Source: Phlegmacium glaucopus
Taxonomy: Eukaryota; Basidiomycota; Agaricomycetes; Agaricales; Cortinariaceae
Assembly (NCBI GenBank): GCA_015039465.1
Contig: MU129999.1
Span: 306,671-370,670, forward strand
Direction: 5' to 3'
DNA length: 64,000 nucleotides
Shown here: piece after piece, positions 3,509-53,510 of the stretch
Position numbering within the stretch: the stretch's first letter is position 1
How the letters are laid out: the number at the start of each line of letters is the position of its first letter
The notes under the pieces: generated by a model
Seen by the model: only the letters and a program-made list of their open reading frames with translations
The model's database searches: none
What the model was told of the DNA's origin: nothing
Translations under genes and position numbers: made by a program

Positions 3509-5333
3509 GAGGTCTTTACACTCCCCCACGTCTTCCTGGAGGAATCCTGGTGGATTCCTACCTATTCCGGGAGGATTCCTGGAGGATTCCGGGAGGAATT
3601 TTCTACCAGCCAATTCCCCCTGAAATTGACATTCCTGGCTCTTCCCAGTCCAGGAGGATTCCAGGTGGATTCCTGGTACACAATGAAATTGATACCAGGA
3701 TTACCGGAATTCCTTAGGAATCCCCAACACAGAATCCACCCGGAATCCTGGGAATTCCTGGTACTACCATTATATATTATGTATTATTAATATTTAAAAG
3801 TAAAATACTAAAACATCAGTAATTCATACTATATATAGGTTAATTGTAATTCATATATTAAAGGTGGCAATGCCTTGCCGCCATTTAAATTTTGAATTTT
3901 GTTCAGGCCACGAGGTGTGGTCACGTGACCGCACATGACAATATTTCCCAAATCAACAAATGTTAGTAATATACTCCGTCATCTCACAACCACCACCATC
4001 GCAACCACCCCAGAACTACGACAACGACAACCAAGACACAACGATGATGATGGATGACAACGAGGATGGAGGAGGAGGAGGAGGACGACCAACAACGACC
4101 AACAATGGCCAACAACGGCCAACAACAGCGACGGTGACGACGATGGCTACCCCCCTAACCAGGGGGGTTTTCGGTTTTTATTTTTTTATTTTCTTATTTA
4201 TTTTGATTCATTGACGACTACCGGCAGCATACAGCGACGATGACGACCTCCCTCCCATCCACCACCTCCACCTCGACACACCACCACTCCCTCACCCCCC
4301 CTTTACCGGGGGGGTTTTTTTAATCCTTATGCTTCAAACGACGACAGCTACCCCCCCCTGAACAGGGGGGTTTTTATTCTATTTCAACTGACGACAATGG
4401 TTACCCCCCTGTACGGGGGGGTTTCATTTTATTTCAACGGACAACGTCGAACGAACAACAGACAACGACGGATGATGACAGCTACCCCCCCCCTGTACAA
4501 GGGGGGGTTATTTTTATTTCATTTATTTTAGTACGCTACCAGGACAACCACCACCACGCACGACGACCACCACCCCCCCTCACTGGGGGGGGGTTATTTT
4601 TATTCTTATTTGATTTCTCTGACGACAGGTATGATGACGAGGACCCACATTGACAACACCCAAACGACACACCCAAACGACAACACGTGCAAACGACAAC
4701 ACGTGCAAACGACAACACGTATGGACAACACGTACAAACGACGACGCATATGAACAACAACAACACACGCGTACGACAACCCCCCTCACAGGGGGTTTAT
4801 TTATTTATTTAATATACTATCACAGCCCTCACACGACAACAACAACAACCCCCTCGCCGGGGTTCATTTTAATTTTAATATACTACAATCATAACCCCTT
4901 CACAGGGGTACATTTTAGTTTAATTAATAGGTTATTAATAAGTGATTAGTGTACTTGTATATAATTTTCAATATATATCTTGCAATAAAAAAATCAAGGA
5001 AAAATTAAATTAAATAAAACAAGTCAATGACTTAGCTGATTTCACCAGAATTCCACCAGGAACTCACCAGGAATTCACCAGGATTCCACCAGGATTCCAC
5101 CAGGAATACCAGGAATACCAGGAATACCAGGAATACCAGGAATCCACCAGGAATTAATGAGGAATCCACCAGGAATTAGATAGGAATCCCAGGAATCCAC
5201 CCGGAATCCACCCGGAATCCATGAGGAATATTCTCATTTACCAGGAATTCCTGGATTCCTGGAGGATTCCTCCAGGATTCCGGGCAGTCCAGGTGGATTC
5301 CTGGAGGAAGACGTGGGGGAGTGTAAAGTTCAG
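3509..5333 (+). mobile_element. TIR element with internal hairpin array, copy 1
   Basis: A non-coding 1825-bp element. The left end reads GAGGTC then TTTACACTCCCCCACG; the right end is its complement, CGTGGGGGAGTGTAAA then GTTCAG. The 9-bp target duplication CAGTTAGAG lies at 3500-3508 and 5334-5342. Inside both ends are about 250 bp of degenerate iterated words (GGATTCC, GGAATTCC, CCAGGAAT). Next inward at 3919-3930 is the 12-bp palindrome GGTCACGTGACC. The centre (4150-4908) holds nine G/C-run hairpins. There is no transposase, so it is non-autonomous. The 8-9 bp target duplication fits the hAT or Mutator classes; the terminal bases do not decide between them. Confidence 0.85.
4150..4908 (+). 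repeat. Array of nine C-run/G-run hairpins with T tracts
   Basis: Nine stems, each a run of 4-8 C, a loop of 4-6 nt, a matching run of 4-9 G and then a T-rich tract, lie at about 4150-4167, 4294-4314, 4351-4370, 4404-4421, 4485-4507, 4573-4593, 4780-4795, 4849-4862 and 4894-4908. Spacers are rich in CAACGACGA-type words. Stem length falls toward the right end. The form mimics bacterial intrinsic terminators, but the host is a eukaryote and no gene ends here. Confidence 0.85.
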
Positions 5334-11323: not shown

Positions 11324-13181
11324 GAGGTCTTTACACTCCCCCACGTCTTCCTGGAGGATTCCTGGTGGATTCCTACCTATTCCGGGAGGATTCCTGGAGG
11401 ATTCCTACCATTCCTGGTAGGAATACCAGGATTCCGGGAGGAATTTTCTACCAGCCAATTCCCCCTGAAATTGACATTCCTGGCTCTTCCCAGTCCAGGA
11501 GGATTCCAGGAGGATTCCTGGTACACAATGAAATTGATACCAGGATTCCCGGAATTCCTTAGGAATCCCCAACACAGAATCCACCCGGAATCCACCTGGA
11601 ATCCTGGGATCCACCCAGAATCCACCGGGAATCCTGGGAATTCCATCAACTCTTACTTTTAAATATTATTCAAAATTAAAAGAACCATATATAAGTCAAT
11701 AGTAATTTAAATGTATATAAGTTAACTGTAATTTGTATATGTGTGGTGGCAATGCCTTGCCGCCATTCGAATTCCGAATTTTGTTCAGACCGCGAGGTAT
11801 GGTCACGTGACCGCACGTCCTCACAAATCAACAAACATCATTTCGTCTTCTCACAACTACCACAACAACCAGGACGATCAAGGACGACAAGACGGGTGGC
11901 GACGACGACCAACGACGACAATGAGCAACAACAACAACGAGGAGGGGTAACGACGAGGAGAGGTAACGACGACGAGGGGTAACGACGACGAGGGGTAACG
12001 ACAACGAGGGGTAACGACGACGAGGGGTAACGACAACGACACGACGAGGGCAACGACGACGACGACGTAACCACCACCACCACCACCACCACCACCACAA
12101 CCACAACAACAACAACAACAACAACCATGGCCACAACGGCCACAACAACGACGACGACGACCCCCCCTCACTTGGGGGGGGGTTGTTTTATTTTTATTGA
12201 TATATTACGACGACGACACGCAAACGATGACAATGACGACCCCCCCTCACTGGGGGGGTTTTTTTATTTTTATTTTTTTTTCTTCTAGTACACTACACGG
12301 ACGATGACCGCAACGACCACCACCACGCACCACCACCACCACTACCACGCACCACCACCACCATGCACCACCACCACCACACACAACAACCACCGTACGA
12401 CAACGACGACCCCCCCTCGCTGGGGGGGTTTTTACTTTTATTACCCGGATAAACACACACGAACGACGGCCACGACGACGACCAGCACGGACGACGACGA
12501 CGACCCCCCCCCCTCACTGGGGTTTTTTAATTTTTATTAGCAAGGTGACGACACATGAATGACGGCCGCGACGACGACCAGCACGGACGACGACACCCCC
12601 CCTCACCGGGGGGTCTTTTTTAATTTTTTTGTTCTTTATTTTAATTGACTATGACGACATGTGCAAACGATGACGAACCCCCCTTCATGGGGGTTTTATA
12701 TATATATTTTTATTACGATCGACAACCCCCTCATGGGGGTACATTTTTAGTTTTGTTAATAGGTTATTAATAAGTGAATAATATATTATTAATGTGAATT
12801 TGTATTTATATAATTTTCAATATATATCTAACAATCAAAAGTCAAAAAAAAATCAAGGAAAAATAAAATTAAATAAAACAAGTCAATGACTTGGCTGATT
12901 TCACCAGAATTCCACCAGGAACTCACCAGGAATCCACCAGGAATCCACCAGGAATACCAGGAATACTAGGAATACTAGGAATACCAGGAATCCACCAGGA
13001 ATTAACAAGGAATCCACCAGGAATTAGATAGGAATCCCAGGAATCCACCCGGAATCCACCTGGAATCCGTGAGGAATTTTCTCATTTACCAGGAATTCCT
13101 GGATTCCTGGAGGATTCCTCCAGGATTCCGGGCAGTCCGGGCGGATTCCTGGAGGAAGACGTGGGGGAGTGTAAAGTTCAG
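11324..13181 (+). mobile_element. TIR element with internal hairpin array, copy 2
   Basis: 1858 bp, same orientation and layout as 3509-5333: ends GAGGTC + TTTACACTCCCCCACG and CGTGGGGGAGTGTAAA + GTTCAG, exact 8-bp duplication GTATTATA at 11316-11323 and 13182-13189, iterated GGATTCC/CCAGGAAT words inside each end, the palindrome GGTCACGTGACC at 11801-11812, and a central block of CGACGA/CCACCA repeats and hairpins. The valine-rich or histidine/threonine-rich frames inside are translations of these simple repeats and not genes. It has no transposase. Confidence 0.87.
12161..12739 (+). repeat. Array of seven C-run/G-run hairpins with T tracts
   Basis: Stems at about 12161-12182, 12240-12258, 12410-12428, 12504-12522, 12595-12613, 12678-12693 and 12726-12739, each followed by a T-rich tract and separated by CGACGACGA or CCACCACCA spacers. 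The loop is TCACT, TCGCT, TCACC or close to it. The design is the same as in copy 1 while spacers and number differ. Confidence 0.85.
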
Positions 13182-25137: not shown

Positions 25138-26520
25138 ACCTTTCAGGCAACCGGAAGAGGAGATATGTATATATACATACCTAAAAGGGGACAACTATCT
25201 CATGTTCTCTTGAAGGACATATTGTACTTGTCATCCATGAGAGTCACATTGGTATCAATAAGTTGTATCACCAATGCTGGGTCAACAGCACTTTTTACCA
25301 GGGGCATTTGCTGAATCTATAACAAAGAGAGGGAGATGTTGGGTGAAATTAAAGTTTAAAATGGACTTTACCAGGTGTTTACACCAAGCTCAGAAACAAA
25401 TGCATATGTCTCAAGCACAAAAGAAGCACTATCCATCAATGAATTGCATCGCTGACTTGGCCACATCTCACACAAAAGAGCCAAATTATTAGTCAGAAAA
25501 GGGCTAGTAGAAGGGGTCAAATTAGATGCTGGTAGCAAACCTAGAGTCTGCAAGTCCTGTGAATGGGCAAAGGGTGAAAGAAAGGCCATAACAAAAGTCC
25601 GAGAGGAAGGGAAGAGTATTGCTGTGGGGGACAAAGTTCACTCCAACTTATGGGGACCAGCACCTATCAAGTCTATCAACCAAAAGCAGTATTTTGTCAG
25701 CTTTACAGACAATTACAGCAAATATTCAAATGTACATTTCCTTCAAACCAAAGATGAAACTCTGGACTCATACAAAACACATGAAGCTTGGCTATCAACC
25801 CAGCATGGTGCCTGTATCAAGTGTCTATGCTCAGACCAAGGGGGAGAGTATCTAAGTGAGGACTTCTCAAATCACCTCAAGCAAGCAGGAACAGTTAGAA
25901 GACTTACAGTTCATGACACTGCAGAACACAATGGAGTCGCTGAACAACTCAATCAAACCATACTCAAAAAAGTCAGAGCAATGCTCTACAAATCCAATCT
26001 TCCTAAAATTTTATGGGCTGAGGCAACAATGCATGCAGTATATCTAAAGAATCACACCTGGATGCGAAGCCTCAAAGAAACAACACCCTATGAAGTCTTG
26101 TACAGTCAAAAACCAAATCTTGGCAATCTTCAACCTTGGGGATGCAAAGTCAGGGTACATGACATGAGCAGCTCTAAATTGGACAGGTGCTTGAAAGTTG
26201 GAAGGTGGATGGGTTTTGATCTGGATACCAAAGATGGTCACTGCATCTACTGGCTGGAGAGAAGAACTGTATCTGTCAAAAGAAGCATCAAATTCAATTT
26301 TGAGGATGAAGAAATAAGTGTTGGAATCATACCAATGGAGGAAGATATCAGAGAGGAAACACAGGAAGTACTGCCCGAGACGTCAAATCCAGAAACCAAA
26401 GTACCAGAAATTGAAAATGTCACTGAACCACTCAACGATGGAGTAGTTAAGGTTACTGATGGGAGAGGACAGTGTATTTGAAGGGAGTCTGAGTATATTA
26501 AGAGGTTGAGAGGAGGAGAT
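25138..26520 (+). pseudogene. Copia integrase region
   Basis: The frame from 25624 to 26481 encodes the integrase core and C-terminal part. The first catalytic Asp is replaced: the usual D-LWGP block reads SNLWGP, with AAC at 25645-25647. The second Asp is kept (CSDQGGEY) and the Glu is kept (AEHNGVAE). The GAG-pre-integrase part before it (25140-25620) is frameshifted (SFTD and the H/C zinc region partly readable). The frame ends at a TGA (26479-26481) followed in frame by RESEYIKRL, again consistent with CGA to TGA. Confidence 0.8.
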
Positions 26521-38700: not shown

Positions 38701-40449
38701 AAAACCATGAAACGGAAATGTGTATGATAGAAAACTGCAAAATGCTGCCTGGTCGCTGACTGCGCGTTCTTTCCGGTTACCGAGAAGAACCTGTATCTCA
38801 ATTGATGATGGATTTAACTTGTATCGTAAAGTAGTTGTCGGACAGTGCAATAGTGGAATTGATGTTTCTATTAAATTCGATAAGGATGCAAGCGAGAAGA
38901 TGGAGTGGCTCGTAAACTTTGCCTTGTTTCACATTTCTTGATATCTGCAACAAAAATTCCGTGCCAGATACCCAGGATGCGTCATGCTGTTAATTATGCG
39001 GGAGCGTACAACAGCCGTTTAGCGAGAATAGGCGAAAGCTGTCTGCCACATAATTACTCCAATTTGACCTGAGATGTTGGATCAATCGAGGAGGCGTGCG
39101 ACATAGATACAAGTCATATTCTCCTTATCAGCTCTGCGAGTTCGGTCTAGTCAGGTCTTCGGCTTGTGACCTCATGAATTCCACAACCAGGGTAGGACAG
39201 TCTAGCGGACGTTCGGGAGAAGGAACGATACGACGTTGTTATTTTTGTATAATCATGGAGTAAATCTCACAACTTTTCATGACCGTAAAGATGCAGAACA
39301 GTAGTCGATGAATGGGGTTACTTTTAACGCTGCGCGTGTTCTAAAAGAAATGATACAGCAGCCTTCTGTCGAAAGCTGATTTATGATGAGTCCAAATCGA
39401 CACTGCGGCGAAATAACACACTCGACTCACCTAAGCCCTGTCTCGAACTAAGGTTTGCAGTCTCTGAAAATCTGACGTTTGAACTTTGATTGAAACTTGA
39501 AGCTTGAAGGCTTTTCCTTGAGATATTGAGGTTGGGTGTCCAATTCGCGTTTTAAATTTGAAAAGCAGGATTAAGATTAGAGTCGAGAAAAAACAGTACA
39601 ATCATTGTCATCCTGAAATACAGAAAAAATATCTGTCTTCAATTGACGACAGTAGAAGTGTAATAGAAGGTATCAAAGACTGGAATGCAGCAAGGTCCTG
39701 TGGGTGCAGGTATAATTGAACTTTGAAACACCGCCGCTTATCCTGCTAGTTTCTGGTCAGCCACCACAACCTTAGCCTTTCAGAATACACTTGCCATACT
39801 TAACTTGTCCTCGTCGCTATTCGATATCAAGTGCCATGATAATATTTGGGTTACCACCGACTCACCGACCAGGGTATTCGATAGGCCACAATGACGGTTC
39901 CATATTCGTCCAACTGGTTGTGTTTTATGGCCAATTTATAACCAGACTTAATTTCAATTGCAACCAACGAAATTGTTTGCGTTAGAACGGTCAGCTTTCA
40001 CCAGCAGCCGTCTCTGCAGGCGTATCTGCTTCCAATGATCACCCAGTTGCAGACACAGCCAACAGTTCGTCGGTATTCGGTCTGTTACCTTCTGGATCTC
40101 TTGGTATTTTGAAGGGTCTCTGAAATAAGTTCTGTGTTCAGGTGACAGAGTTGGCAACCTAGGGCAACCGGGAGGGCATGAGCTTGGGTGTCTCACTCAG
40201 TCCATCAGGAATTCAGGCTAGTTTGGTGCGTTGGCCCTTTAGATTCAGTAACTTCCTGTGCATCTCCGCGTCTTTTTTTGTTTTGTTTTTGCTTTAGTGC
40301 TTTAGAGGCAGATTGCATGTGCTGCTTGGGTGCATGTTTTTCTAATTTTGCTGCGTTGACGGCCTGACTACTCTGCGACTGTGGTTTTTGCGATTCGTCT
40401 GGCTCCTGGTCACACCTTAAACTGCTGTTCGTATTAAAATCTTTGTTGC

Positions 40450-40528
40450 CATGGTGGATGGATGAAAGGGAGATATTGCTCCCTGACTCACTTCGTCTAT
40501 TATTGGCTGTGACCGTGATGAATGTCAC
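40450..40528. promoter_or_regulatory. Conserved block of unit 1: CCATGG-GGA / GACTCAC / GTGAC..GTCAC
   Basis: Contains GCCATGGTGGATGG, CTGACTCAC, and GTGACCGTGATGAATGTCAC with inverted GTGAC arms. The same order is found in all four units at 827, 710, 809 and 829 bp before the small-gene ATG. The role is unknown; it could also contain a gtgagt donor of a minus-strand exon. Confidence 0.4.
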
Positions 40529-41180
40529 GGATGCTATACATTGGGTTCAAGGAGCCAGTCGATTTGGAGGAGCATAAGTCAACGTGTCGATGCCTTCTTG
40601 AGACATCTAGGAAGATATTTAGATGGCAGGCGGACTTGAATTGGGCACGAGTTGGAGCTGATGAGCTTGTGTAGGAGTTTGTTGGAAGTTGATTCGGGCA
40701 TCATGTGTCGCGAGCGCTGTTTGGTGTTTTGAAGGAGCAATACGCTACACATGCTTCTCAACTGCTTCTCAACGAAATGGTTTACCGTACCAGGAGGTTT
40801 CCATAGTGTCAAGCGGGTGCCAGGCCAAAGTGAAGCTGACTTTGTATCGCCTTGTAGAACCAGCGCATTTATAAGCTTGAATTGAATGAAAGGCTACCAC
40901 CAACGGACCTTAATGACCTGATTCACAATCGCTAGCAAGCACTCTGTCTGCCGATCGGAAATGGGAAATCGTTCGTCGTTCGAGCTACAAATTTCTTCTA
41001 CAAGCAAACCTAGTGAAAGTTCATTTCCAATGGCGTTCCAATGGTCTGCTGGATGGATTCGGATTCAAACATTGAGCAGCGATTGTCGAAGTTGTTCCTG
41101 GCCATACTTTTAGCGCTTGGGGTGAGCCCGGGGATGCGTTCACGCTCAAATGACAAATTAGGGTGCAGCGTGCGGTCGAG

Positions 41181-41220
41181 TCAAGCCATTACCAAATTCA
41201 GTATGATTTGCACGTATAAA
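41181..41220 (+). promoter_or_regulatory. Promoter of small gene A
   Basis: TCAAGCCATTACCAAATTCA matches the conserved block upstream of the other three copies and is followed by CACGTATAAAGCC, a TATA box about 142 bp before the ATG. Confidence 0.5.
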
Positions 41221-41354
41221 GCCCAGCAAGTTCCAAAATCCTTTCTTCGCTTCCTCCGAAGTTCACTCTCTACCAGTGTTGTCACTTGCACGGTTCACTC
41301 TCTTTACGGCCCTCACTTTCTTTTCTATCCAAGCGACCTCAAACCTCTTGTTTT

Positions 41355-41881
41355 ATGGCAATCCCAAACATTCCCATGCCATCGTTTACGCTGGCTCTCA
41401 CCTCCGGACAATGTTCTCACCGTCGTCATCCAACTACATTTGATACGTGTGTATTAGTTCCAAGCGCGCCAGATCACCTGATGGTGCGTGTTTATGTTCA
41501 TTTTTTGCCTACATTAACCTGTCCCCCGTTAGAAGACCATTGATCTTCGCGGCGAACCTGAGGACGACCGTAGCAATTATGCAGAGGACTTTGTGAGTTC
41601 AACACCCCAAACGAAGACTTTTATCCTAAATAAGTGTTTTCCTATATTAGACTACCTCTGTTAATCAAGAACATGTCCACTTGCCCACTATTTACGAAGA
41701 AGCAGAGCCGTCATTTTTAGGAAGTATAGCAAAAAAGGCTGGTAATCCCATCAAAGTATGTATGCCCTGTTACCATCCCTATGTCTACTCAGAATCCAAT
41801 TGTTACCAGGTGAATTTGTTGGCCTTCCTTCGCAAGTTCGTATTCAAAGGTTTGGTCAAGAAAATGTCTTCCTCCACCTAA
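41355..41881 (+). CDS. Small-protein family member A (4 exons, 121 aa), unrecognised
   Basis: Exons 41355-41483, 41533-41592, 41651-41755 and 41810-41881; all three introns are phase 0 and GT-AG. The N-terminal block is MAIPNIPMPSFTLALTSGQ; exon 1 ends DHLM, exon 2 starts KTIDLR, exon 3 starts TTSVNQEH and ends PIK, and the last exon is short and basic (FLRKFVFKGLVKKM). The middle is acidic. No signal peptide, membrane segment or C-terminal CaaX box is present. The intron positions recur in copies B-D, which supports a real gene. I do not recognise the family. Confidence 0.65.
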
Positions 41882-43773
41882 CTCCTACCAAAACATGCCC
41901 TGACTCAAGATTTCCTCGACTACGCATGTCGGCGGAAATTTAAGTGCCAACTCACTCCTTTATATGCAATCCTTTATCCTTTAATTAATCCTATCTTTAC
42001 TTCCAGTGTACCATATGCCGCTCTACATATTTTAAGTCTCCTATCCCCAACCGACCACTCTGTGCCAACGATGGTCATGAGTTCAGTCCTTTCCGGCTTT
42101 CTTTTTCCATTATAGGTCTTGGTAGATTGTAGATCTGTCGAATATTTCTTTCAAATTTCCATGTTTCAAATATTTGAAAGAAAATTTACCATTTGCTCGC
42201 ATCGAAGTTTGCACTCTGTAATCTCGCTATTATGTTTTCAGATGGCCACCGTGTTGGTGAGGTAGATATCGACGGAAAAATCTCGTTAAGAATATATATA
42301 CTTACCGCCAAGTACGTCCCGAGTCTCAGCGATAAAGTGGTACGGCACCTTGATCATGGGATTTAAATCCTATCGGGGAATAGGATGCAAAATAGTGAAA
42401 TTGATTTATGAGATGCCAGGTCCAATTTTTCTGCAATTCAATTTATGCAGAGGTAGGAATGTGAGCGACAACTTCAAAATTGGAAGTAGAGCCGCTCATA
42501 ACCTTGCCTTGCTTCAGCTTCAAATTTCTTGACTTCTACAACAGAAATTTCACGAAAGTCGGCATAGATAAATCCGCACTGGAGGTCAAATCGTAGTAAA
42601 GGCACAGAGGAACATGACAGTGCTTTTTTCAACAGCGATTTGGCGAGGATATGAAGAGGAAAGTAGGCTGGTCCAAATGGAGTGGGCGAAGCCTCTACCA
42701 CATATTTACTCCAATCTGACCTGAGACAACATAGATAGAAGTCATGCATGTTCTGCCTATTGGCTGTGCGACTTCGGTCTCGTCAGGTTTGTGGCTTGTG
42801 AGACCACATGAATTCAGTCAAGGCAGGAGGACTGTCTCAGCGTCCAGAGGCTCAGGAAAGGGAACGATAGGGCCTCATTCTCTTAGAGACATAGTTCATA
42901 TGCGAGTTTAGTGCTGTAAATAGTAGCAGTGGATTAATCTAGAATCCAAAAATCACTGACGCACGAAAAATACAAGAAAACTGTTGACTACATCGTTACG
43001 TTACGCCTCTGCGCGCTACGCAGATATATCAACAGATTTGGCGGTTCCACATGCTGCGACGCTTGGGAAAGAAAAGCCACATCCGCCTGGATGGAGCATC
43101 GTGTAAATTGAGCGATCTTTTGTTAGGGAACGAGAATTCGTGTTTCACGCCGTAGAATGTTAAATCGAGATAGAAAGTTGCTGTATTGACTGACGATGAC
43201 TGTAAAATTATATCGCCGATATACGACGGTAAAAAATAACATCCAGCAGCAAAAACGATTTGGGAGAGAAGAGGAGTGACGACGGCGGGTGCTGGCGGGT
43301 TTGTTGTGCGAACTTTGAAACACCGCTACTCATCATAAGAGATCCTCCTTACTGGCTTCTCAGCTCTTCTCAGTCAACCAGAACCTCATGGCCTCGGAAA
43401 ATATGCACTCACCGTCTGATATATTAACCTCTTCGTTAGCCGACATGGCACGGTTTAAATGCTCATAGCTTCGATTCACTGGCCCCGACATATGCCACCG
43501 CTACTCAACACAAACGATCCTGGCTTCTCAGTCAATCACCACAACATCACGGCCTCAGAAAATATACACTCACCGTCTGGTATATTCACCTCCTCGTTAG
43601 TCGAAATGGCAAGGTCTAAATGCTCATATGATGTCGCGGATTTCTTCGATTCATACATGCCACAAGTGCGATTTCATTCGACAAATATTCCAGTATAGGA
43701 AATGGGTCCTACGAACGAAGATACAGTTGCTTAACATCATGGCGAGCCCCCTACGATTGGCATTGAAATAGTC

Positions 43774-44252
43774 ATGGTGTTCTGTTGGGCTTGGATTCAG
43801 ACACAGCGGGCGACAGTCAAATTGCACGATGGAGCAGAAAAAGCCTATAGTTCACTAGCATTCAAGAGGGTTATCTTCTGGGTCTCATGGGGCTTTTTGT
43901 TACTGAAAATCGATGCAAGCATGATTGTGGCAGGCATCGAGGTCGGCCGCAAGTACTCGGACATGAAAACATTCACATCTTATTCAGAAAAATCAGGCCT
44001 CCAGTTCGGTGAGTAGTTTTTTCCTTGACTTGTATGGCTCTTCTGCGCTTTGGATGCTTGGGGTTCTATCCATTTTTTATGCGTTGAATACACAGGCGTC
44101 TTCAGGATTCTTGCTATATCAAGTACCAGCTGTTGGCCTGAGGTTCTCGCCATCGGTTGTTGCTGGAATATTATGGATCTTGGTCACACCTTAAAGTTGT
44201 CAAATCATGAATACCATGGTGGACTGGGAGTAAAAATGCTCTGACTCACTCC
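43774..44252 (+). pseudogene. Exon-like frame conserved between units 2 and 3
   Basis: Unit 2 reads ATVKLHDGAEKAYSSLAFKR, then a hydrophobic GFLLLK and AGIEVGRKYSDMKTFTSYSE to KSGLQFG, followed by a gtgagt intron and an exon starting VFRILAISS. In unit 3 (47579-47797) the same frame is interrupted by TAG codons at both ends. Unit 4 (51400-51590) keeps only the donor region. It seems to be a second gene of the ancestral unit, now decaying. The family is unknown. Confidence 0.35.
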
Positions 44253-44286
44253 GCGCTCGTCGTGACGTGGTCGTGACGAATGTCAC
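44213..44286. promoter_or_regulatory. Conserved block of unit 2
   Basis: ATACCATGGTGGACTGG, CTCTGACTCAC and GTGACGTGG...GTGACGAATGTCAC, in the same order as in unit 1. Confidence 0.4.
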
Positions 44287-44790
44287 AGTCTCTAGCATGA
44301 GGTGATAGTATGGAAGCAGGCGTTTTGTGCCCATACTCAACCAAAGACACCGCCAGAGTCAAGAACTCTTTGGGAGACCAGCAGGTTGGTAGCAGCCCAG
44401 TGTATCCCATCAGAAGGTGTCAAGGACGAGTTTGTTTACCATGCCCGTTTTCTTATTCTGCAACGCACAGCTTTGCTGGGTCATTACCCGCTATTATTTC
44501 CTTTGCAAGTAGTAACGATATTCAAGCTAACCTTTCGTCGTACAGGAAGGCAAGGTTCTCTGATGGGCAGAGGATATCCTTAATGTTTTCGGAGGAGCGC
44601 TGCCGGACAATTGAAATAGGTTCTCTTTGTGTAAAAGAACTAGCTGTGGCCCGCCACGCTTTAGAAATTGGATTGTCGATTCCCTCAAGGCACTTGGGGT
44701 CTTCAGACTTCAGAAACTTCAGAGGCTGGGGAGTTAGGGATAGGTGCATCGGGAGGCATTCCGGTTCAGATCGAAGTCGCAACCAGTCGC

Positions 44791-44860
44791 GCCGAAGCAT
44801 TACCTAAATCAGGATGACTCGAACCCTGCACCGAGGCAAATTCAAGCTCTATAAGAACCT
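44791..44860 (+). promoter_or_regulatory. Promoter of small gene B
   Basis: GCCGAAGCATTACCTAAATC at 44791-44810 is followed by CTCTATAAGAACC, a TATA box about 146 bp before the ATG. A pyrimidine-rich tract lies between the TATA box and the ATG. Confidence 0.55.
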
Positions 44861-44995
44861 AGGGGACCCTTTTTTACCTCAGGAACCTTTTCCCACCTCT
44901 CTCACTTTCTCGCGCCAAAAATCTCACTTTCAACTGTCTTTTCGTTTTTCCCTTTCCTTCATCCACGATTCCACTTATTTTGACCCACCGACCAC

Positions 44996-45453
44996 ATGTC
45001 ACCCTATCGTAAACCTCTGCCGTCATTCACGCTCGTTCTTACATCTGGTCACCATTCCTTTCGTCCAGCTACCATTCAACTGTCCTCGGCAATGCCTCCA
45101 GATTTTTTGATGGTACACATTTGACCAAGCCTGTCATTTTCGTTGATTTTAACCCATTTATCACCAGAAAACCATTGACTTACGCCACGATTCTTCGGAC
45201 GATGAATTCGTTGAGAACCGCGATGAGATTGTCGATTCGCAGGCTGCCTTCGAGGAACAACCTGGGACCTTTGATCATGTAGCAGAGCAAACTAGTACTA
45301 ACTCCATCAAGGTATGTATATTTCTAACCATCAACGCCCCATATCCTGTATTGATACTCTGATCAGCAGAATTTTTTATTCCTCATTCACAAACTCGTAA
45401 ATCATAAACGGAAGTTCGTTACTCGCAAGAACGGACAAAATGACCGCCCTTAA
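44996..45453 (+). CDS. Small-protein family member B (3 exons, 114 aa), unrecognised
   Basis: Exons 44996-45112, 45168-45311 and 45370-45453, both introns phase 0 (55 and 58 nt). The protein starts MSPYRKPLPSFTLVLTSGHH; exon 1 ends DFLM, exon 2 starts KTIDLRHDSSDDEFVE and ends SIK, and the last exon is NFLFLIHKLVNHKRKF with a basic tail. Exon 2 is the fused equivalent of exons 2 and 3 of A and D. It is nearly identical to C. An alternative acceptor 3 nt upstream would add one Gln. Confidence 0.68.
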
Positions 45454-46900
45454 CTAGACCGTCTCTGTGCGGTCAACGCATATCTTCCAAAATATTTTGT
45501 CAATAGCGGCCGCGAGAGAAACAAGACTTCTATATGTTAATATTTACCAGTACCAATGTAGCCAATGCAGCCAACCCGGCCCAACCGATCTAAGACCCAG
45601 TCTTAGCCGCCCCTACACCCTTCTAGATGTACCATATGTGACATAAAACACACCCTTACTTGCGTTTGGATAATCTTGACCTGCTAATGTATGTTTTTTT
45701 CCTTTGAAAGGTTCATGCTGATCAATATATTTTGACCAGATTCATTTCTTTGAGGAAGCCGTTGGAAGAATGCAAGACTGGAGCTGTCTGTCGAGGAGAA
45801 GATGGCACTCCAGCGGTTTATATCCCACATTAATAACCATCAGTCGTTTTGAACATATTAACTACCCTGCGCCGAGAAGTGAATATAGTATTGGGTAGAG
45901 CAATCCTTATAAGTAGAAGCTGCGAAATTGTTCATCAACTCCAAAGTAGAAGGTCGGTTTGGGACATTGACAATTATTAAGCAGCGGCGAATGAAGGTAG
46001 TTGCGGCTGTGTCATCTCGATATTTTCGAATGAAAGCTTTCTACCTCTCGGGGACAAAAAGTGCAGAAGCTCTCCTGATACTAGAATCTCCCTGTCGTCT
46101 GCCACTTGGTTAGAAACTGTCGGAGAGCGAGACGCGACCAGATAATGAAACACCTTCAAACGCCGTCATAATTGACGCGGCATAGGATTAAGATTTCAAC
46201 AACATACATGACCCCAGGGGCCATATGTCGGAAGACTTCAGTAGTTTATGTTTGATATTTGCTTGTTGTCTGAAATTAAAACCAGTCCTTTCAATCAGAT
46301 TGGCTTTTTGCTAACTTGAATGATCAGCATAGAAACGTAGATATAGCTTCACGATCAATGGGCAACGAAAAGGGTTCTGCCTGTCGAGAAGATAGCACCC
46401 AGCAGTTCATGTTATTAGAAATAGTTGACCTCTATTTTGCAAATCCTAATTAAATTTCCGTTCTCTCAGTCTGGCATCTTGACGCTGCTGGCTTCATTGT
46501 CTCTAAACGACTTGGGGCCTCAGTACGATTGGTATCAGTCTGCTGATACATACCTACTTTATCTCTTTTTCGTCTGCGTTTGCGCGCTGTCAGTGTAATC
46601 TTCCATTCGCATCGAAAAGCCGAAAGTTTTTACGTTATTCAAGGATTGTTATGCTTTATATCAGTATGGGGCTCGTATGATAAACTTGGCTCTTACCTTA
46701 CATGGAAAATTTATTGCGCGGAGGCCTTCTAATAGTTCCAGAGCAGGAGAGGAGACCGAAGAAGGGTTTCCATATTACAGTCCAGGAGAAAGAACATAGT
46801 GGGCAAGAGACCTTAGCTTGTTTCCGATGTATGAGGAATGTTGGGTACCACTGCAATCTTATAGTGCATGGGTGCAAGAACAGATCGCCAAACCACACGA
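45454..46900. other. Unit 2 tail and unit junction, no supported gene
   Basis: 45700-46200 is matched in unit 3 (49580-50100). The stretch 46380-46900 has no obvious match and no supported gene. Confidence 0.4.
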
Positions 46901-48007
46901 ACGGTTGCATCTATACTGGGAGGTGTTGTGGGTCTGAATGGGCGTAGATTAATCAAGGCCACAGTTTGGCCAGGGATGTCCAGAGACTGTTACAGTACAG
47001 ATTTGGAAGTTCCACATTCGCGACACTGGGACAAGCGCCTCTGTCATCGGGCCTTGAGCGATTGGTTTGTTGGGGTGTTGAGTGACGAAAATTGGCATTT
47101 CGGGCAGTAGACTGCAATAGAAAGTCGCTGTATTGACCAACTTCATAATATAACTGGAAAAATATACCTCGCCGATATACGACGGTGAAAAAATAACATA
47201 TGGCAGTCAGAGCAATTTGGCGGAGAATAGAATTGAAGACGGATGCTAGCAAATTTGTTGTGTGACCTTTGAAACACCGCTACTCAACACAAACGATCCT
47301 CCTCCATCCTGGCTTCTCAGTTAACCACCACCACAACGTCATGGCTTCATAAAATATACACTCACCGTCTGGTATATTCACCTCCTCGTTAGTCGACGTA
47401 GCAAGGTTTAACGGTCATAGCACGATGTCGCGAATGTCTTCAATTCATATATGCCACAAGTGCAATTTCATTCGACAAATATTCCAGCATAGGAAATGGG
47501 CATTATGAGCGGAGATATAGGTGCTTAACCTTATGCCGAGCCCTTACAACTGGCGTTGAAGTGGTCATAGTGTCCTGTTAGGCTTGGATTCAGACACAGT
47601 GGGCGACAGTCAAATTGCACGATGGAGCAGGAAAAGCCTATAGTTCACTAGCATTCAAGACTGTTGTCTTCTGGGCCTCATGGGGCTTCTTGTTGCTGAA
47701 AACCGATGCAAGAATACTTGTGGCAGGCATCGAGGTTGGCCGCAAGTATTCCGACATGAAAACATTCACATCTTATTCAGAAAAATCAGGCCTCTAGTCC
47801 GGTGAGTGTTTTGTTTTTTTGACTTGTATGGTTCTTCTGCGCTTTGGATGCTTGGAGTTCTATCCATTTTTTATGCGTTGAACTTGAGTACGCAGGCATC
47901 TTCAGGATTCTTGCTGTATACGGCCGTTTGCCTGATATTCCTGCCATGGTTATTGTTGGAATCTTGGTCACACCTCAAAGTCGTGCTGTTCGTGTCAAAT
48001 CATGAAT

Positions 48008-48083
48008 ACCATGGTGGACGGTTAAAGAGTAACAATGCTCTGACTCACTGCTTTGGTTGTGACGTGAGTGTGACGACTGTCAC
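48008..48083. promoter_or_regulatory. Conserved block of unit 3
   Basis: ACCATGGTGGACGG, CTCTGACTCAC and GTGACGTGAGTGTGACG...GTCAC. Confidence 0.4.
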
Positions 48084-48682
48084 GTAGCGTCTGGCAGTAC
48101 TCTTCAGTCGGTGGGTAACGTGGCAGAGGGCTCGGGGCGATAGAAAGAGGACGTTCGAGATACGCTGGATAGTATGGAAGCAAATGTTTCGTGCCCATAC
48201 TCAGCACCGCTAGAGTCAGAGACCAATAAGTTGACCTTTGAGGGTGGTAGCAGGTTGGCAGCAGCCCGGCGTGCGCATCCCGTTGAGCAGTTTGAGAAGG
48301 CATCCAAGGAAGAGTTTGTTTACCGTGTCTGTCCTTTTATTCTGCAACGTACCAGCTTTGCTAGGTTGTTGTCCCTGTTCTTTCCTTTGCAAGTAGTAAT
48401 TATCGTCGAGCTGACCTTTCGTCATACAGGAACTCACGGTTCTCATGGGAAACTATAATGAGAGCAGAGATTACCATCAATATCTGCGGAGGAGTGCTGC
48501 TGCGCAGTTGAGATGGGTGCAAAGAACTAGCTCTTACCCGCCACTCCTTAGAAGTTGGAATGTCGGTTCCGTCAAGGTCCTTAGGGCTTTTGAGTCTCCA
48601 GACTTCAGAAACTTGGTTGGAGAGTTAAGGATAGGTGCCTCGGGATGCATTCCAGTTCAGATCGGAGTCGCAACCAGGTCGC

Positions 48683-48750
48683 GCCGAAGCATTACCCAAA
48701 TCAGGACAGCTTGAGCCCTGCACCGAGGCAAAGTCTAGCTCTATAAGAAC
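48683..48750 (+). promoter_or_regulatory. Promoter of small gene C
   Basis: GCCGAAGCATTACCCAAATC followed by CTCTATAAGAAC about 150 bp before the ATG, as in gene B. Confidence 0.55.
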
Positions 48751-48891
48751 ATGACCCTTTTTTTTTACCTCAGAACCTTTTCCCCACTTCTCTCCCAGTT
48801 TCTCGCTCCAGAAATCTCACTTTCAGCTTCCAACTGTCTTTTTTCGTCGCCCTCCCTTTACCCACGATTCCACTTATTTTGTCCAGACCAC

Positions 48892-49354
48892 ATGTCGCCC
48901 TATCGTAAACCTCTGCCATCATTCACGCTCGTTCTTACATCTGGTCACCATTCCTATAGTCCAGCTACCATCCAACTGTGCTCTGCAATACCTCCAACCG
49001 CTCCAGAATTTTTGATGGTACACATTTGACCAAACCTGTCATTTTCGTTGATTTTAACTCATTTATCTCCAGAAAACCATTGATTTACGCCACGATTCTA
49101 CGGACAATGAATTCGTTGAGGTTCGTGACGAGAATGTAGATTCGCAGACCGTCTTCGAAGGAGAACCACCTGCGACCTTTGACCACGTAGCAGCGCAAAC
49201 TAGTACTCGTTCCGTCAAAGTATGTATATTTTTAATCGTCAAGCATACCGTATTGAAACTGTTATCACAGAATCTTTTTTTCCTCATTCACAAACTCGTA
49301 ACTTTTAAATGGAAGTTTGCTGCTTGCAGGAACGGACCGAATGTTCCCCCTTGA
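48892..49354 (+). CDS. Small-protein family member C (3 exons, 118 aa), unrecognised
   Basis: Exons 48892-49017, 49073-49219 and 49271-49354; introns of 55 and 51 nt, both phase 0. It starts MSPYRKPLPSFTLVLTSGHH like B; exon 1 ends EFLM, exon 2 starts KTIDLRHDSTDNEFVE and ends SVK, and exon 3 reads NLFFLIHKLVTFKWKF. Differences from B include small in-frame length changes (3 and 1 residues) and substitutions, with no stop or frameshift, so the reading frame has been kept since the duplication. Confidence 0.68.
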
Positions 49355-50300
49355 CTAGACTCTGCGGTCAACCCATATCTTCGACAATATTCTGTCGACG
49401 GCGGCCACGAGAGAAGCAAGGATATCTATATGTTAATAGTTGCCGATACCAATCTAGCTAACCGATCTAGTACCCAATCCCACCCTACACCATAATCCTT
49501 CCCTTACAGATGTACCATATGTAACATAAGCAATATCTTGCTTGCGTTTGGATAATCTTGACCAGCTGCTAAGGTATGCTTTTTCCCCCTTGAAAGCTGC
49601 ATGCTGATGAAGAATTTTGACCAGATTCATTTGTTTAACCAAGCCGTTGGACGATTTTGCAAGCTGTCCGTCGAGTAGAAGATATCATACATTAATAATC
49701 AGTCGTTTTGACCATGTTCGGCCGCCTTTCCTCGAGAAGTGAATGTGAAATATGAATGGAATAACATTAGGTAGAGCCATCCTCATAGACGCTGCCATAG
49801 CGTTCATCATCCAGCACCTCCAAAGCGGGAGGTCGATTTGAAGCATTGAAAATTGAACAGTGGCGAATAAAGGCATTTGCGGCTGTGTCACCTTAGATGT
49901 TTTCGCTGGACAACCTTTATTTCGAGGGAAAAATGTGCCGATGTGGAGAAGCTCTCCTCAGTCCTGATAGAATCTCTTTAACGTCTGCAAATTGGAAGAG
50001 TGTCGTTTTGCTCACATTTTTGTTTGGTCTCAACTGCCGTTAGAAACTGTCGGAGAGCGAGACGTGACCAAACACTCAAACACCTTCAAACGCTTTACTA
50101 GCAGTTAGGAGAAGGAAACACTTCAACAACATCCACGACAGTGTGAACTGAGTATGACGTCAGTCGTTTAAGCTTGGCATTTGTTGGTTATCCAAGATAT
50201 AGTTGTTTCAATCGGATTGGTTTTTTACTTAGGCCAATAATCAGCACCAGAAACGTAGATCATTAGCGTGGAGCTCTTGCTTTCTCCATAGTCAACCGAA
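49355..50300. other. Unit 3 tail, no supported gene
   Basis: Matches the tail of unit 2; no gene supported. Confidence 0.4.
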
Positions 50301-50301
50301 G

Positions 50302-50643
50302 TTGGGAAGAGGTCGAGATTTCACCGTGGTATTTGGGTCAAAGGTTCAATTTGAAACTTGGGATCGAAGTTTGAAAGATGCGATCTCCGCGTCTGAGGCT
50401 TTCAATGAGAGTATGATATTTTGCGGCTGCAAGTCTGATCAAGATGTCAAGAGGCTTACCTCAGTGAATGAGTCTCCATTCTGGACGCAGGTAGACAAAT
50501 ACCAGGGGAGAGTCCTCACTTTGAGGATGATGTTGAGGATGCTGGAGACCTTATTGGAGGCTTCACAAAAACCAAGAAATGCCGGCCTCAGGCGTGTCCA
50601 CACTGACCACATAAAACTAAGTTCCTTCGATAGACGCAGGTAG
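50302..50643 (+). CDS. Open frame, unrecognised
   Basis: 113 codons, soluble and charged (MGRGRDFTVVFGSKVQFETW..., LTLRMMLRMLETLLEASQK). No intron signals, motifs or paralogue in the other units were found. It could be a chance frame or part of a lost gene. Confidence 0.2.
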   Translation: MGRGRDFTVVFGSKVQFETWDRSLKDAISASEAFNESMIFCGCKSDQDVKRLTSVNESPFWTQVDKYQGRVLTLRMMLRMLETLLEASQKPRNAGLRRVHTDHIKLSSFDRRR

Positions 50644-51678
50644 GTCCTTTCCAGTCGGCAAGCGGGCAGGCTGCTTGGAAACTAAGGCCACAAAATCCAT
50701 TGTCCAACGAACTGCCAGATGATCAAAAAATTGACGGCTACAAGGATTCTTCGGCCCTGCATTTTTTACGCGTTGGGAGTTTCTGAAGGAAAAAGAATGA
50801 TATGATACGAAGGACGTCCTAGAAATACAAGACGAATATTATCAAAATTATTTCCCGTAAATCTGAGACGGTAGAAAGGAAGAACTAGAGATTGCCACGC
50901 AGTAGGGACTGCGAGGCGGATGTAACTCGTTTGAGACACTGTGACCACAAGTGGCCTGTATGTAATCAACCACTGCAGGTCCATATCCAGTGACTCCCAC
51001 TTTCTTGTATTGACCGTCGTCGTTCCATTATATGTGATTAGGGAGGGGCATATTAGGTCCTGTTAGAGTATCTGGGCTTCCCCTATGCCACACGTATGAG
51101 GAGAATTCTGTTGACAATCATCCAGAAAATACCCGTCACAACTGGACGACATATCTTGATCAGTCATTAGCCAACATTCACTCGCACTGGGATTGACTAG
51201 TACGGATGTTGATTCCTATTCATTGGAGATTCTGATGGGGTGGAACGGCCAGGCCAAACCACGCAACAATCCAGCTAAAGCCAGTGGTTCACCGCTGACA
51301 TCCTTGAGGCGTCTTCTGGGCCATCGTAACTCGGATGTTAATTTCTTCCAACGCAGCTGCCAGTTAGGATGATCGCCGACGATTCGCCGTCTGGGACTCG
51401 AAGAATGTCGCATATCTCAAGCAGAAAAATCCGACTCAAACGCCAGTCGGTGAGTCTTTCTTTCAAATTCATTTCTCTCGGACTTTCTTTGGTCTTCCGC
51501 AACTTGGGTATCCTGAAAGACTTTGGGTCCCCTGCTGTATCTTGCTGGCCATGTTCTTTGCTCCCTTTTTGCTTTTTGGGGCAGTGATAGCTTGATAACA
51601 TCTGGCTCTCCCGGCGCCGGAAGCTCCCCAGGTTTGCACCTCACCTCAATAGCATTATTTTTTTTCGTTGAAAATCAT

Positions 51679-51743
51679 CAATACGTGGTCCAAAGATAGA
51701 TGATGCTCACTGACTCGCCATAGTGTGACTGTGATAATGTCAC
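51679..51743. promoter_or_regulatory. Conserved block of unit 4
   Basis: ATCATCAATACGTGGTCCA, CACTGACTCGC and GTGACTGTGATAATGTCAC; the CCATGG core seen in the other units is lost. Confidence 0.35.
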
Positions 51744-52402
51744 ATGTATGTGGTGCGGCTCATCGAGTACGACAATTTGGAAGCAGCTAGAGGCACCGGT
51801 GGACATATTATAGGGAGCGGAATCATCCCACTTGTGTTGTGAAGCATGGTTAGGGATGCATCAATTGGAATAACCCCGCGGTTGTTGGAACATAGTCTAG
51901 CCAGGGTCCAGGATGAGATGGGTTCCTCGAGGCTTGAGTCTGGTTGCTACCAGCATGGGTGGGAAAGCGCAGCCCCTTATATTGAGACGAACAGGCTGTT
52001 CATCTGGCCTTCTATCATGACCCTGTCGCATTCTAGGGTGGATAGACCACTCATCTCCGTTGTTTTTATTTGCAATTGCAAGATGTGGCTGACTAGTCCT
52101 GACTGCGGCAGGGGAAAGCAAGGGAAAGACCTATTGATCATGATGGCTTTTGATTCGCGAAGGGTCAGGCTGAATGATACAGTCTGAATGATACTATCTG
52201 CGGGATGAGGGAAGGATATTATCGAGGTACTTGATTTTCAATAGATCAATACCTTTCGCTAAATTGTCCGTCAAAGTTTTCCATTCGTAGCCTTTCGATT
52301 ACTTGTTGAACAGAGGGCGTCTAGGCCGCCAATTATTTCAGTTCACTGATAGACGGAAGGGGCATGTATGGAGATGAAACCGTTGTTTTCAGTGCATAGT
52401 CG

Positions 52403-52430
52403 CGTCAAGGCATTACTCAATCGAGGATGG
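52403..52430 (+). promoter_or_regulatory. Upstream block of small gene D
   Basis: GTCAAGGCATTACTCAATCG corresponds to the block upstream of genes A-C, 142 bp before the ATG. No clear TATA box follows. Confidence 0.45.
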
Positions 52431-52571
52431 TTTTTTTTCGTCTGATTGGCAAACATTGTTTCAAAGAAGCTCCTTTCAGCTGAGGGTTCTCTTTCCATAC
52501 ATCCTCCCAGCCTCATTTCGGGTATTTTGGCACTTGTGCTCTTTTACCACATCCAATTCCCTCGTTTTTCT

Positions 52572-53129
52572 ATGGCACATTCGCACATCCGACTACCGTC
52601 TTTCAGTCTCGTCCTTACATCTAGCTGGCATTCTTTACACGGATATCCAACCGCTGGCTTTGATCCTTGCGCCTCACACACAATGCTTCCATTTGTCGTC
52701 GACCACTTAATGGTAATTACGCCGTTTTTGTGTGGCAGATGTCATGAGCGCTAACCTTTCTTAACTCTAGAAAACCAACGAACTAGGTGGTGAGCCAGCG
52801 GACGCCAATCTGCCGATGGCCTATTTAGACGAGGCTGTGAGTTGGGTATCTTCTGGTGGATTGTCAACAGACTCATACACGCTTTGTGTCGCACAGACTG
52901 TACAAGTTGGCCATGGGGACACCATCCTAAAGGAGGAAGAACTCTCAACTACTCACGGTACAAAAAAAGACACTGTTAGTGTCACCAAGGTATGTGCATG
53001 CCTTAAATTTAGAACACACGTCCGTCTTTATAATCAATTTACTCGCAGCAACATATCTTGACAGCCATTCATTCCCTCAAAAAGAAACTGTCTGGAATGA
53101 CTAAATCCTCTACGCGCCGAATGTTTTAA
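52572..53129 (+). CDS. Small-protein family member D (4 exons, 126 aa), unrecognised
   Basis: Exons 52572-52712, 52771-52836, 52897-52989 and 53049-53129; all introns phase 0 (58, 60 and 59 nt). It starts MAHSHIRLPSFSLVLTSSWH; exon 1 ends DHLM, exon 2 starts KTNELGGEPADANLP, exon 3 starts TVQVGHGD and ends VTK, and the last exon is basic (LKKKLSGMTKSSTRRMF). The intron between exons 2 and 3 matches that of A, including an acceptor followed by ACT; because its length is a multiple of 3, retention would also leave the frame open. Confidence 0.62.
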
Positions 53130-53510
53130 TCTATCTGTCTTCCCACTCAAGTAGTCTTGTGGCTCTCAGAGTCTCACCAAAACAGACAACGTCCATCTTG
53201 GGCTCTGAACTTAGCGGACGATTTATGTCTTCTGTACCAGTAATAGATCCAAGAGTAGAATTCGTAGAGTCGTTATTGTACACATGCTTTTGCGAAAATT
53301 ACATTTGCCTTTTTTTCTCTTGCACTTGGCACCTTGGTTGGCGCCGGTGACCGTTTCCTTACAAGTATACGGTTGAACTTATATTATAAGTGTCCTTAGA
53401 AAAAGACACGTAATATGGTCTGACTAAGGGAGACTAGGTTGGTTCACACTGGTGTTTACGTAATCAGAAAATCTAGCAAGTCTGGTGACGGTAGTACTTT
53501 GGTAGTACTT
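53130..53510. other. Intergenic, upstream of LCB1
   Basis: Contains TTATATTATAAG near 53373 as a possible core promoter; nothing else seen. Confidence 0.4.

Follow-up and report, generated by a model that had tools for sequence, protein, structure and literature searches.

The PSFTLVLTS genes of Phlegmacium glaucopus: a small-protein family and its associated upstream DNA module

Introduction

Mycorrhiza-induced small secreted proteins are small, lineage-restricted and fast-evolving proteins of ectomycorrhizal fungi, B mating-type pheromone precursors come from small tandem mushroom genes, and MSDIN-type precursors combine a conserved N-terminal stretch with a variable remainder. All of these traits recur in a tandem array of four small genes, A to D, in a 64,000-nucleotide stretch of the Phlegmacium glaucopus genome (GenBank assembly GCA_015039465.1, contig MU129999.1, positions 306,671 to 370,670 of the forward strand; hereafter the window). 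According to PMC7550596, lineage-restricted genes of no known function make up much of the gene content of mushrooms, symbiosis often induces species-specific genes, and Cortinarius (Phlegmacium) glaucopus is named for recent long terminal repeat (LTR) insertions. An original prediction, made from the letters of the window, had proposed that the array encodes an unrecognised small-protein family, which could be effectors, self/nonself recognition factors or a selfish system. Here we report that A to D belong to a family of spliced genes, which we name the PSFTLVLTS family, and we describe a family-associated upstream DNA module that is new here.

Results

Gene models and copies in the genome

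The array region was read between 38.5 and 54.5 kb of the window, and splice models were then built (Table 1). The ten introns (three, two, two and three in A to D) are GT-AG introns of 49-60 nt and all in phase 0, and A and D each have one intron more than B and C; the rebuilt models thus reproduced the protein lengths and intron positions first predicted. Among the four proteins, 18 of 134 alignment columns are invariant, including P-S-F-x-L-x-L-T-S and L-M/K-T (the slash marks intron 1). When ten exon queries were compared with the translated window over its full length, A to D were recovered, the other matches reaching only E 0.8-0.94.

Independent database annotations agreed with eight models at 98-100% identity over the shared part: P0013 for gene A, P0001 for gene B and P0003 for gene C, together with P0002, P0008, P0011, P0012 and P0015; P0019 likewise agreed at 98%. 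P0013 is identical to gene A over its 114 amino acids (aa) and has a shorter N-terminus from a later start, P0001 is one residue longer than gene B (115 aa), and P0003 has a longer N-terminus than gene C. The last intron of gene B has a tandem CAG acceptor (window 45367-45372), of which P0001 uses the first and our model the second, giving the one-residue difference. Gene D had no record of its own among the protein-database matches; its D-type exon-1 relatives there are P0034, P0036, P0037, P0041 and P0046.

Searches of the genome located further family members on the contig that holds the window (C9; 180-215 kb, minus strand, a second cluster) and on contigs C144 and C161, and C9:161105 and C9:165481 were added on reading those regions. 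We modelled 15 family starts by one procedure, which is biased towards the structure of A to D because it allowed only phase-0 introns and ranked models by likeness to A to D. Intact genes were obtained for 13 of the 15 starts, namely A to D and nine more, and database annotations agreed at 98-100% identity with the models at C9:202534, 184418, 180949, 195650, 165481 and 161105. The copy at C9:214938 gave no intact model, exon 2 being frameshifted and the donor of the last intron altered, and at C161:18565 an interruption follows the point where exon 2 homology begins. Outside this set lie a solitary gene at C198:109.8-110.3 kb (P0023), record P0022 on a 4.7-kb contig, exon fragments at C144:172 kb, and a truncated copy at C9:178.9-179.8 kb (178925-179829, minus strand) that keeps the upstream module with no gene after it. 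The family counts are lower bounds and amount to at least 14 genes. Duplication and loss are both ongoing in the family. Because nine more intact copies share the structure of A to D and the independent annotations agree, the family is more than chance, and A to D are confirmed as real spliced genes of a small-protein family.

Table 1. Coordinates of the features described, as positions in the window (aa, amino acids; ORF, open reading frame)
Feature	Position	Strand	Details
Gene A (type A)	41355..41881	+	exons 41355-41483, 41533-41592, 41651-41755, 41810-41881; 121 aa
Gene B (type B)	44996..45453	+	exons 44996-45112, 45168-45311, 45370-45453; 114 aa
Gene C (type B, recent sister of B)	48892..49354	+	exons 48892-49017, 49073-49219, 49271-49354; 118 aa
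Gene D (type D)	52572..53129	+	exons 52572-52712, 52771-52836, 52897-52989, 53049-53129; 126 aa
Upstream module of gene A	40407..40528	+	TGGTCACACCT ... TGACTCAC ... GTCAC
Upstream module of gene B	44181..44286	+	unit alignment and genome pattern search
Upstream module of gene C	47965..48083	+	unit alignment, genome pattern search, DNA search
Degenerate upstream module of gene D	51636..51743	+	TGACTCGC at -861, no GTCACACCT; no exact pattern match
Second conserved non-coding block, gene A	39655..39934	.	unit comparison
Second conserved non-coding block, gene B	43276..43665	.	partly duplicated; tandem copies
Second conserved non-coding block, gene C	47232..47521	.	unit comparison
Intron-free ORFs			P0006, P0007, P0009, P0014, P0016, P0017, P0018, P0020, P0021, P0024, P0044, P0055

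No matching family in Pfam, NCBIfam or PDB

Members are defined by PSFxLxLTS in exon 1, L-M/K-T over the phase-0 intron 1, T-I-x-E-E and a basic last exon, all of which were present in A to D and the nine further intact copies. No Pfam cut-off was passed by the four genes, 24 members or 10 outlying members (best E 0.036). Among the 24 members, one alone had an NCBIfam match of E 0.002, to trimethylamine monooxygenase, which we judged to be chance. The best PDB profile match had E 0.35, and Rfam gave no match on the window at gathering scores. In the PMC articles searched we found no mention of PSFTLVLTS, SFTLVLTSG or BYT27DRAFT, and nothing on such a family. Judging from these searches, no described family in Pfam, NCBIfam or PDB fits, in line with the unrecognised status first claimed. 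An arrestin-like origin of the N-terminus, suggested by a resemblance, was rejected, as the 10 outlying members gave no Arrestin_N match in Pfam at E <= 10.

The chain runs from an N-terminal PSFTLVLTS through LMKTIDLR across intron 1 and an acidic variable middle with T-I-x-E-E to a basic amphipathic C-terminal helix. In 23 sequences, including those of Flammula and Cyclocybe, P9, S10, L13, L15, T16, L41 and T44 (gene C numbering) are invariant and F11, V14, S17 and M42 nearly so. All 24 proteins examined carry an acidic middle (-3 to -12) and a basic stretch in the last 30 residues (+4 to +8), with a net charge near zero. None of the 24 has a transmembrane stretch (highest 19-residue mean hydropathy 1.32) or a clear signal peptide, the latter judged by hydropathy alone. 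An AlphaFold model of P0001, built with 24 sequences, gave a mean predicted local distance difference test (pLDDT) score of 59.8, a predicted template modelling (pTM) score of 0.23 and a single helix at residues 85-108; residues 55-80 fell below pLDDT 50 and the N-terminal 20 residues reached 70-78. The proteins are thus predicted to be small, non-secreted and largely disordered, with one C-terminal basic helix. At the end of exon 1, 9 of 23 sequences have P[TS]AP (PSAP in gene A, PTAP in gene C) and 12 of 23 have P[TSA]xP; we take P[TS]AP to resemble the late-domain motif of the endosomal sorting complex required for transport (ESCRT).

Relatives in other mushrooms and types of different age

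A 16-row profile (A2) matched 54 proteins at E <= 10 and 51 at E <= 1e-3, and a 17-row profile (A5) matched 36 at E <= 10, several in each case being rows of the profile itself. With A2, of which neither is a row, relatives were found in Cyclocybe aegerita (P0050, E 5e-7) and Agrocybe chaxingu (P0053, E 3e-3). With A5, Flammula alnicola gave two relatives, P0056 and P0057 (E 1e-18), and the members of the three genera ranged from 1e-18 to 1e-28, P0050 and P0053 being rows of A5. A weak relative in Gymnopilus junonius (E 0.09) was accepted on its motif alone. The Cyclocybe protein as a query had no match in the P. glaucopus genome, an outcome that the search tool rates as uninformative. Phlegmacium (Cortinariaceae), Flammula and Cyclocybe all lie in the suborder Agaricineae, and these profile matches place the array in a multigene family restricted to one lineage of gilled mushrooms (Agaricineae).

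Twelve open reading frames (ORFs) from other sources, each on a contig of 0.9-2.1 kb, extend from exon 1 into the last exon and contain no intron sequence (Table 1). They are probably cDNA, intronless copies being a less likely alternative; since they are taken as cDNA, they point to transcription and splicing in relatives and make expression of family genes probable. Possible isoforms were noticed by eye: P0005 seemingly retains intron 1, and P0024 and P0044 are without the exon-2 part.

A tree built from 34 rows had good support for 12 of its 31 inner branches, with long branches for P0055, P0023 and gene D. The tree and best matches among 67 proteins placed members from other sources in each of types A, B, D, E, F and S, with P0052 as the single such member of type F. 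The window holds types A, B and D, type B in two recent copies. By this grouping the units differ in age: B and C are recent sisters, and A and D are of other, older types. The diversification in tandem that had been predicted holds; a single age for the units does not.

An upstream DNA module accompanies the genes

The pattern GTCACACCT N48-77 TGACTCAC had 12 matches in the 60.5-Mb genome and its reversed control none. All 12 sit 813-983 bases upstream of starts in the set of 15, indicating that the module is a family-associated DNA element whose exact matches occur genome-wide only beside family genes. Alignment of 14 units (C9:207920 left out) gave a consensus of TGGTCACACCT, CCATGG.GGA, TGACTCAC and GTGAC..TGTCAC. 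For gene D, the anchor TGACTCGC was chosen by likeness to the other units. Of the 15 units, 13 have TGACTCA, presumably a site of the basic leucine zipper (bZIP) type, at positions from -746 to -924; counted in either orientation, 15 sites compare with about 2.8 expected from base composition, the units not being independent. Used as a DNA query, the module of gene C returned seven places, which were six family units (itself included) and the gene-less unit.

We then compared five type representatives in segments anchored on TGACTCAC, an anchoring that favours the module. In all 10 pairs the module aligned better than shuffled sequence (z 3.8-9.4), as did exon 1 (z 3.7-9.8), and flanking segments exceeded z 3 in 5 of 40 comparisons: B-S (11.1), B-F, S-F and D-F at -300..-160, and A-F at +50..+190. 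Across types, the module is thus conserved to roughly the same degree as exon 1, unlike most flanking segments. A second upstream block is kept at about -1300 to -1800 with no reading frame kept. The intergenic parts had been described as decayed, which does not apply to these two non-coding blocks kept between types, nor to units B and C, which can be aligned along most of their extent (73.9% over 1926 and 82.5% over 829 columns).

Two other candidates in the upstream region did not hold up. A divergent coding gene in the second block, suggested by a minus-strand start and splice donor in some units, was rejected, as the units do not have start, frame and donor in common. TATAAG near -150 is doubtful as a TATA box: by eye, the P0006 open frame runs through the matching place, and the P0006 transcript therefore starts further upstream.

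Selection is purifying and mild

The ratio of nonsynonymous to synonymous divergence (dN/dS) was 0.25-0.57 by NG86 (17 pairs in one run, 8 in another), 0.37-0.90 by YN00 and 0.37-0.74 by maximum likelihood. Pooled over five independent pairs, the proportion of nonsynonymous differences (pN) was 0.080 and that of synonymous differences (pS) 0.179 (ratio 0.45, Fisher p 1.1e-7). In all 10 pairs, codon positions 1+2 were less diverged than position 3, and splice sites showed 0-1 differences per 18-27 positions per pair. In recent pairs, pN/pS was 0.42 in exon 1, 0.34 in the middle and 0.77 in the last exon; between types the values were 0.41, 0.69 and 0.86. Whole-codon gaps are a product of the protein-guided alignment and were given no weight. 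Against strong constraint, each of the listed pairs diverged less in introns than at synonymous sites, and in 9 of 10 pairs the 300 bases upstream of the start codon were less diverged than position 3. By these ratios, selection on the family is purifying but mild; the purifying selection originally invoked for the open frames holds in this weaker form. The outcomes that would have spoken against the original prediction did not occur: the pooled ratio is not near 1, other mushrooms have homologues, and ORFs that cross the intron positions exist on short contigs.

Surroundings of the array

To the right of the array lie a gene of the pyridoxal phosphate (PLP)-dependent aminotransferase fold, which by eye resembles serine palmitoyltransferase, and an RPB1 gene. 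A copia-like retroelement fragment (window 25456-26478), with matches to an integrase core and a retroviral SH3-like domain, lies on the left. The window also contains two arrays of one 11-base unit, CACCAGGAATC (5043-5229 and 12902-13068), and a 304-base direct tandem duplication with 97% matching (1696-2298).

Discussion

We tentatively propose that the family acts as a set of intracellular regulatory adaptors that are switched jointly, each combining a constant N-terminal docking motif with a charge-masked basic helix. This proposal draws on the near-invariant PSFxLVLTS and LM/KTID, the charge pattern, the helix, purifying selection and the family-associated module. The N-terminal motif would dock on one constant partner inside the hypha, and the cationic helix would bind an anionic surface, either a membrane or an acidic partner, while the acidic middle would mask the helix and tune specificity. 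Tandem copies would be co-switched through the TGACTCAC-type module, giving a higher dose with varied middles and tails. Several observations weigh against this proposal. Docking, masking and co-regulation are read from anatomy; constraint is weakest in the last exon, which bears the helix (pN/pS 0.77 in recent pairs, 0.86 between types); YN00 dN/dS is as high as 0.90; and dN equals or exceeds intron divergence in some pairs (B-C, 0.128 against 0.11). An exact module is absent from three of the 15 units (gene D, C9:180949 and C9:207920, where 1266 of 3400 upstream bases are N), and retention of the module could partly reflect common descent of the duplicates. The AlphaFold model is weak and could miss a fold.

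A bolder version, which we consider rather unlikely, is a new class of regulator: disordered adaptors with one invariant docking motif and a family-private distal promoter module through which the repertoire is switched as a unit. If true, mushrooms would possess combinatorial, competing intracellular adaptors with diversifying middles and tails, serving development or recognition between hyphae. The near-invariant motif, the old types and the DNA module define the family by sequence, so that partner, regulator and phenotype are each directly testable. The family also suggests that unsecreted disordered proteins, besides secreted effectors, expand in an ectomycorrhizal lineage.

Among the alternatives, self/nonself or pathogen-recognition factors, perhaps working with NOD-like receptor (NLR, NACHT) proteins, seem quite unlikely. 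Tandem copies are diversifying and NACHT genes flank the second cluster on both sides; however, at least 150 NLR places were scored among 317 candidates in the genome, and Pfam gave no HET-type or other recognition domain in the four genes and 24 members. Nearness to NACHT genes says little because NLR genes are so numerous in the genome, and an NLR link to the family was rejected on that ground. The recognition reading itself is neither supported nor contradicted. The flanking NACHT genes lie at C9:157.7-159.1 kb and 218.6-220.0 kb (L026:7710-9122 and L032:8575-9999), and one of them is followed by WD40 repeats (L033).

We give an equally small chance to a decaying array, in which lightly constrained or already neutral duplicates stay open mostly through youth. 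The mild constraint (YN00 0.37-0.90), the one frameshifted and one interrupted copy, the gene-less unit and the C144 exon fragments would fit such decay. It is at odds with 13 of 15 modelled starts being intact, with the small number of splice-site differences (0-1 per 18-27 positions in each pair), and with the same motifs kept by types older than the split from other sources.

Very unlikely, in our view, are symbiosis effectors, which the ectomycorrhizal fungus would export for action inside tree roots and which would diversify in tandem. The proteins are small and fast-evolving and have expanded in an ectomycorrhizal genus, but relatives occur in Cyclocybe, Agrocybe and Flammula, which we take to be non-mycorrhizal. 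The absence of a clear signal peptide by hydropathy in the 24 proteins also counts against the secreted effectors originally suggested. In its favour again, PMC7550596 describes species-specific genes induced in symbiosis as common.

Precursors of cationic helical peptides, whose basic C-terminal helix would be active (for example, antimicrobial) and neutralised by the acidic middle until release, have likewise little chance. Near-zero net charge with an acidic middle and a basic amphipathic tail in 24 of 24 proteins, and the helix as the sole structural element predicted by AlphaFold, agree with this design. Yet hydropathy gave no signal peptide, no conserved processing site was seen by eye in the alignments, and the N-terminus, rather than the tail, is most conserved. 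A selfish killer system of the poison-antidote type, spreading by drive, would suit small multi-exon tandem genes with possible isoforms (P0005, P0024 and P0044, by eye), but is extremely improbable, as no transmembrane stretch or toxin-like domain was found and six types are shared with other sources.

Compared with known systems, wtf-type poison-antidote drivers have several transmembrane stretches, and the 24 PSFTLVLTS proteins have none. The family also differs from mycorrhiza-induced small secreted proteins in showing no clear signal peptide by hydropathy and in having relatives in saprotrophic fungi. Unlike B mating-type pheromone precursors, A to D are without a C-terminal CAAX cysteine four residues from the end. 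A link to the mating locus was rejected: C9 has no STE3 match, such matches occur on C127, C240 and C144 (at 2.3 Mb), and the C144 family gene is 2.1 Mb from them. PSFTLVLTS proteins are longer than MSDIN-type precursors and four-part, with an acidic middle and a basic helix and without the MSDIN leader. The closest likeness is to the hypothetical proteins of Flammula (P0056/P0057), Cyclocybe (P0050) and Agrocybe (P0053), which share the motif order of PS[FI]xLVLTSD, [DY]LMKTIDLR or close variants, TIFEE and a basic tail; these fungi have one or two matches per species, whereas P. glaucopus has at least 14 genes.

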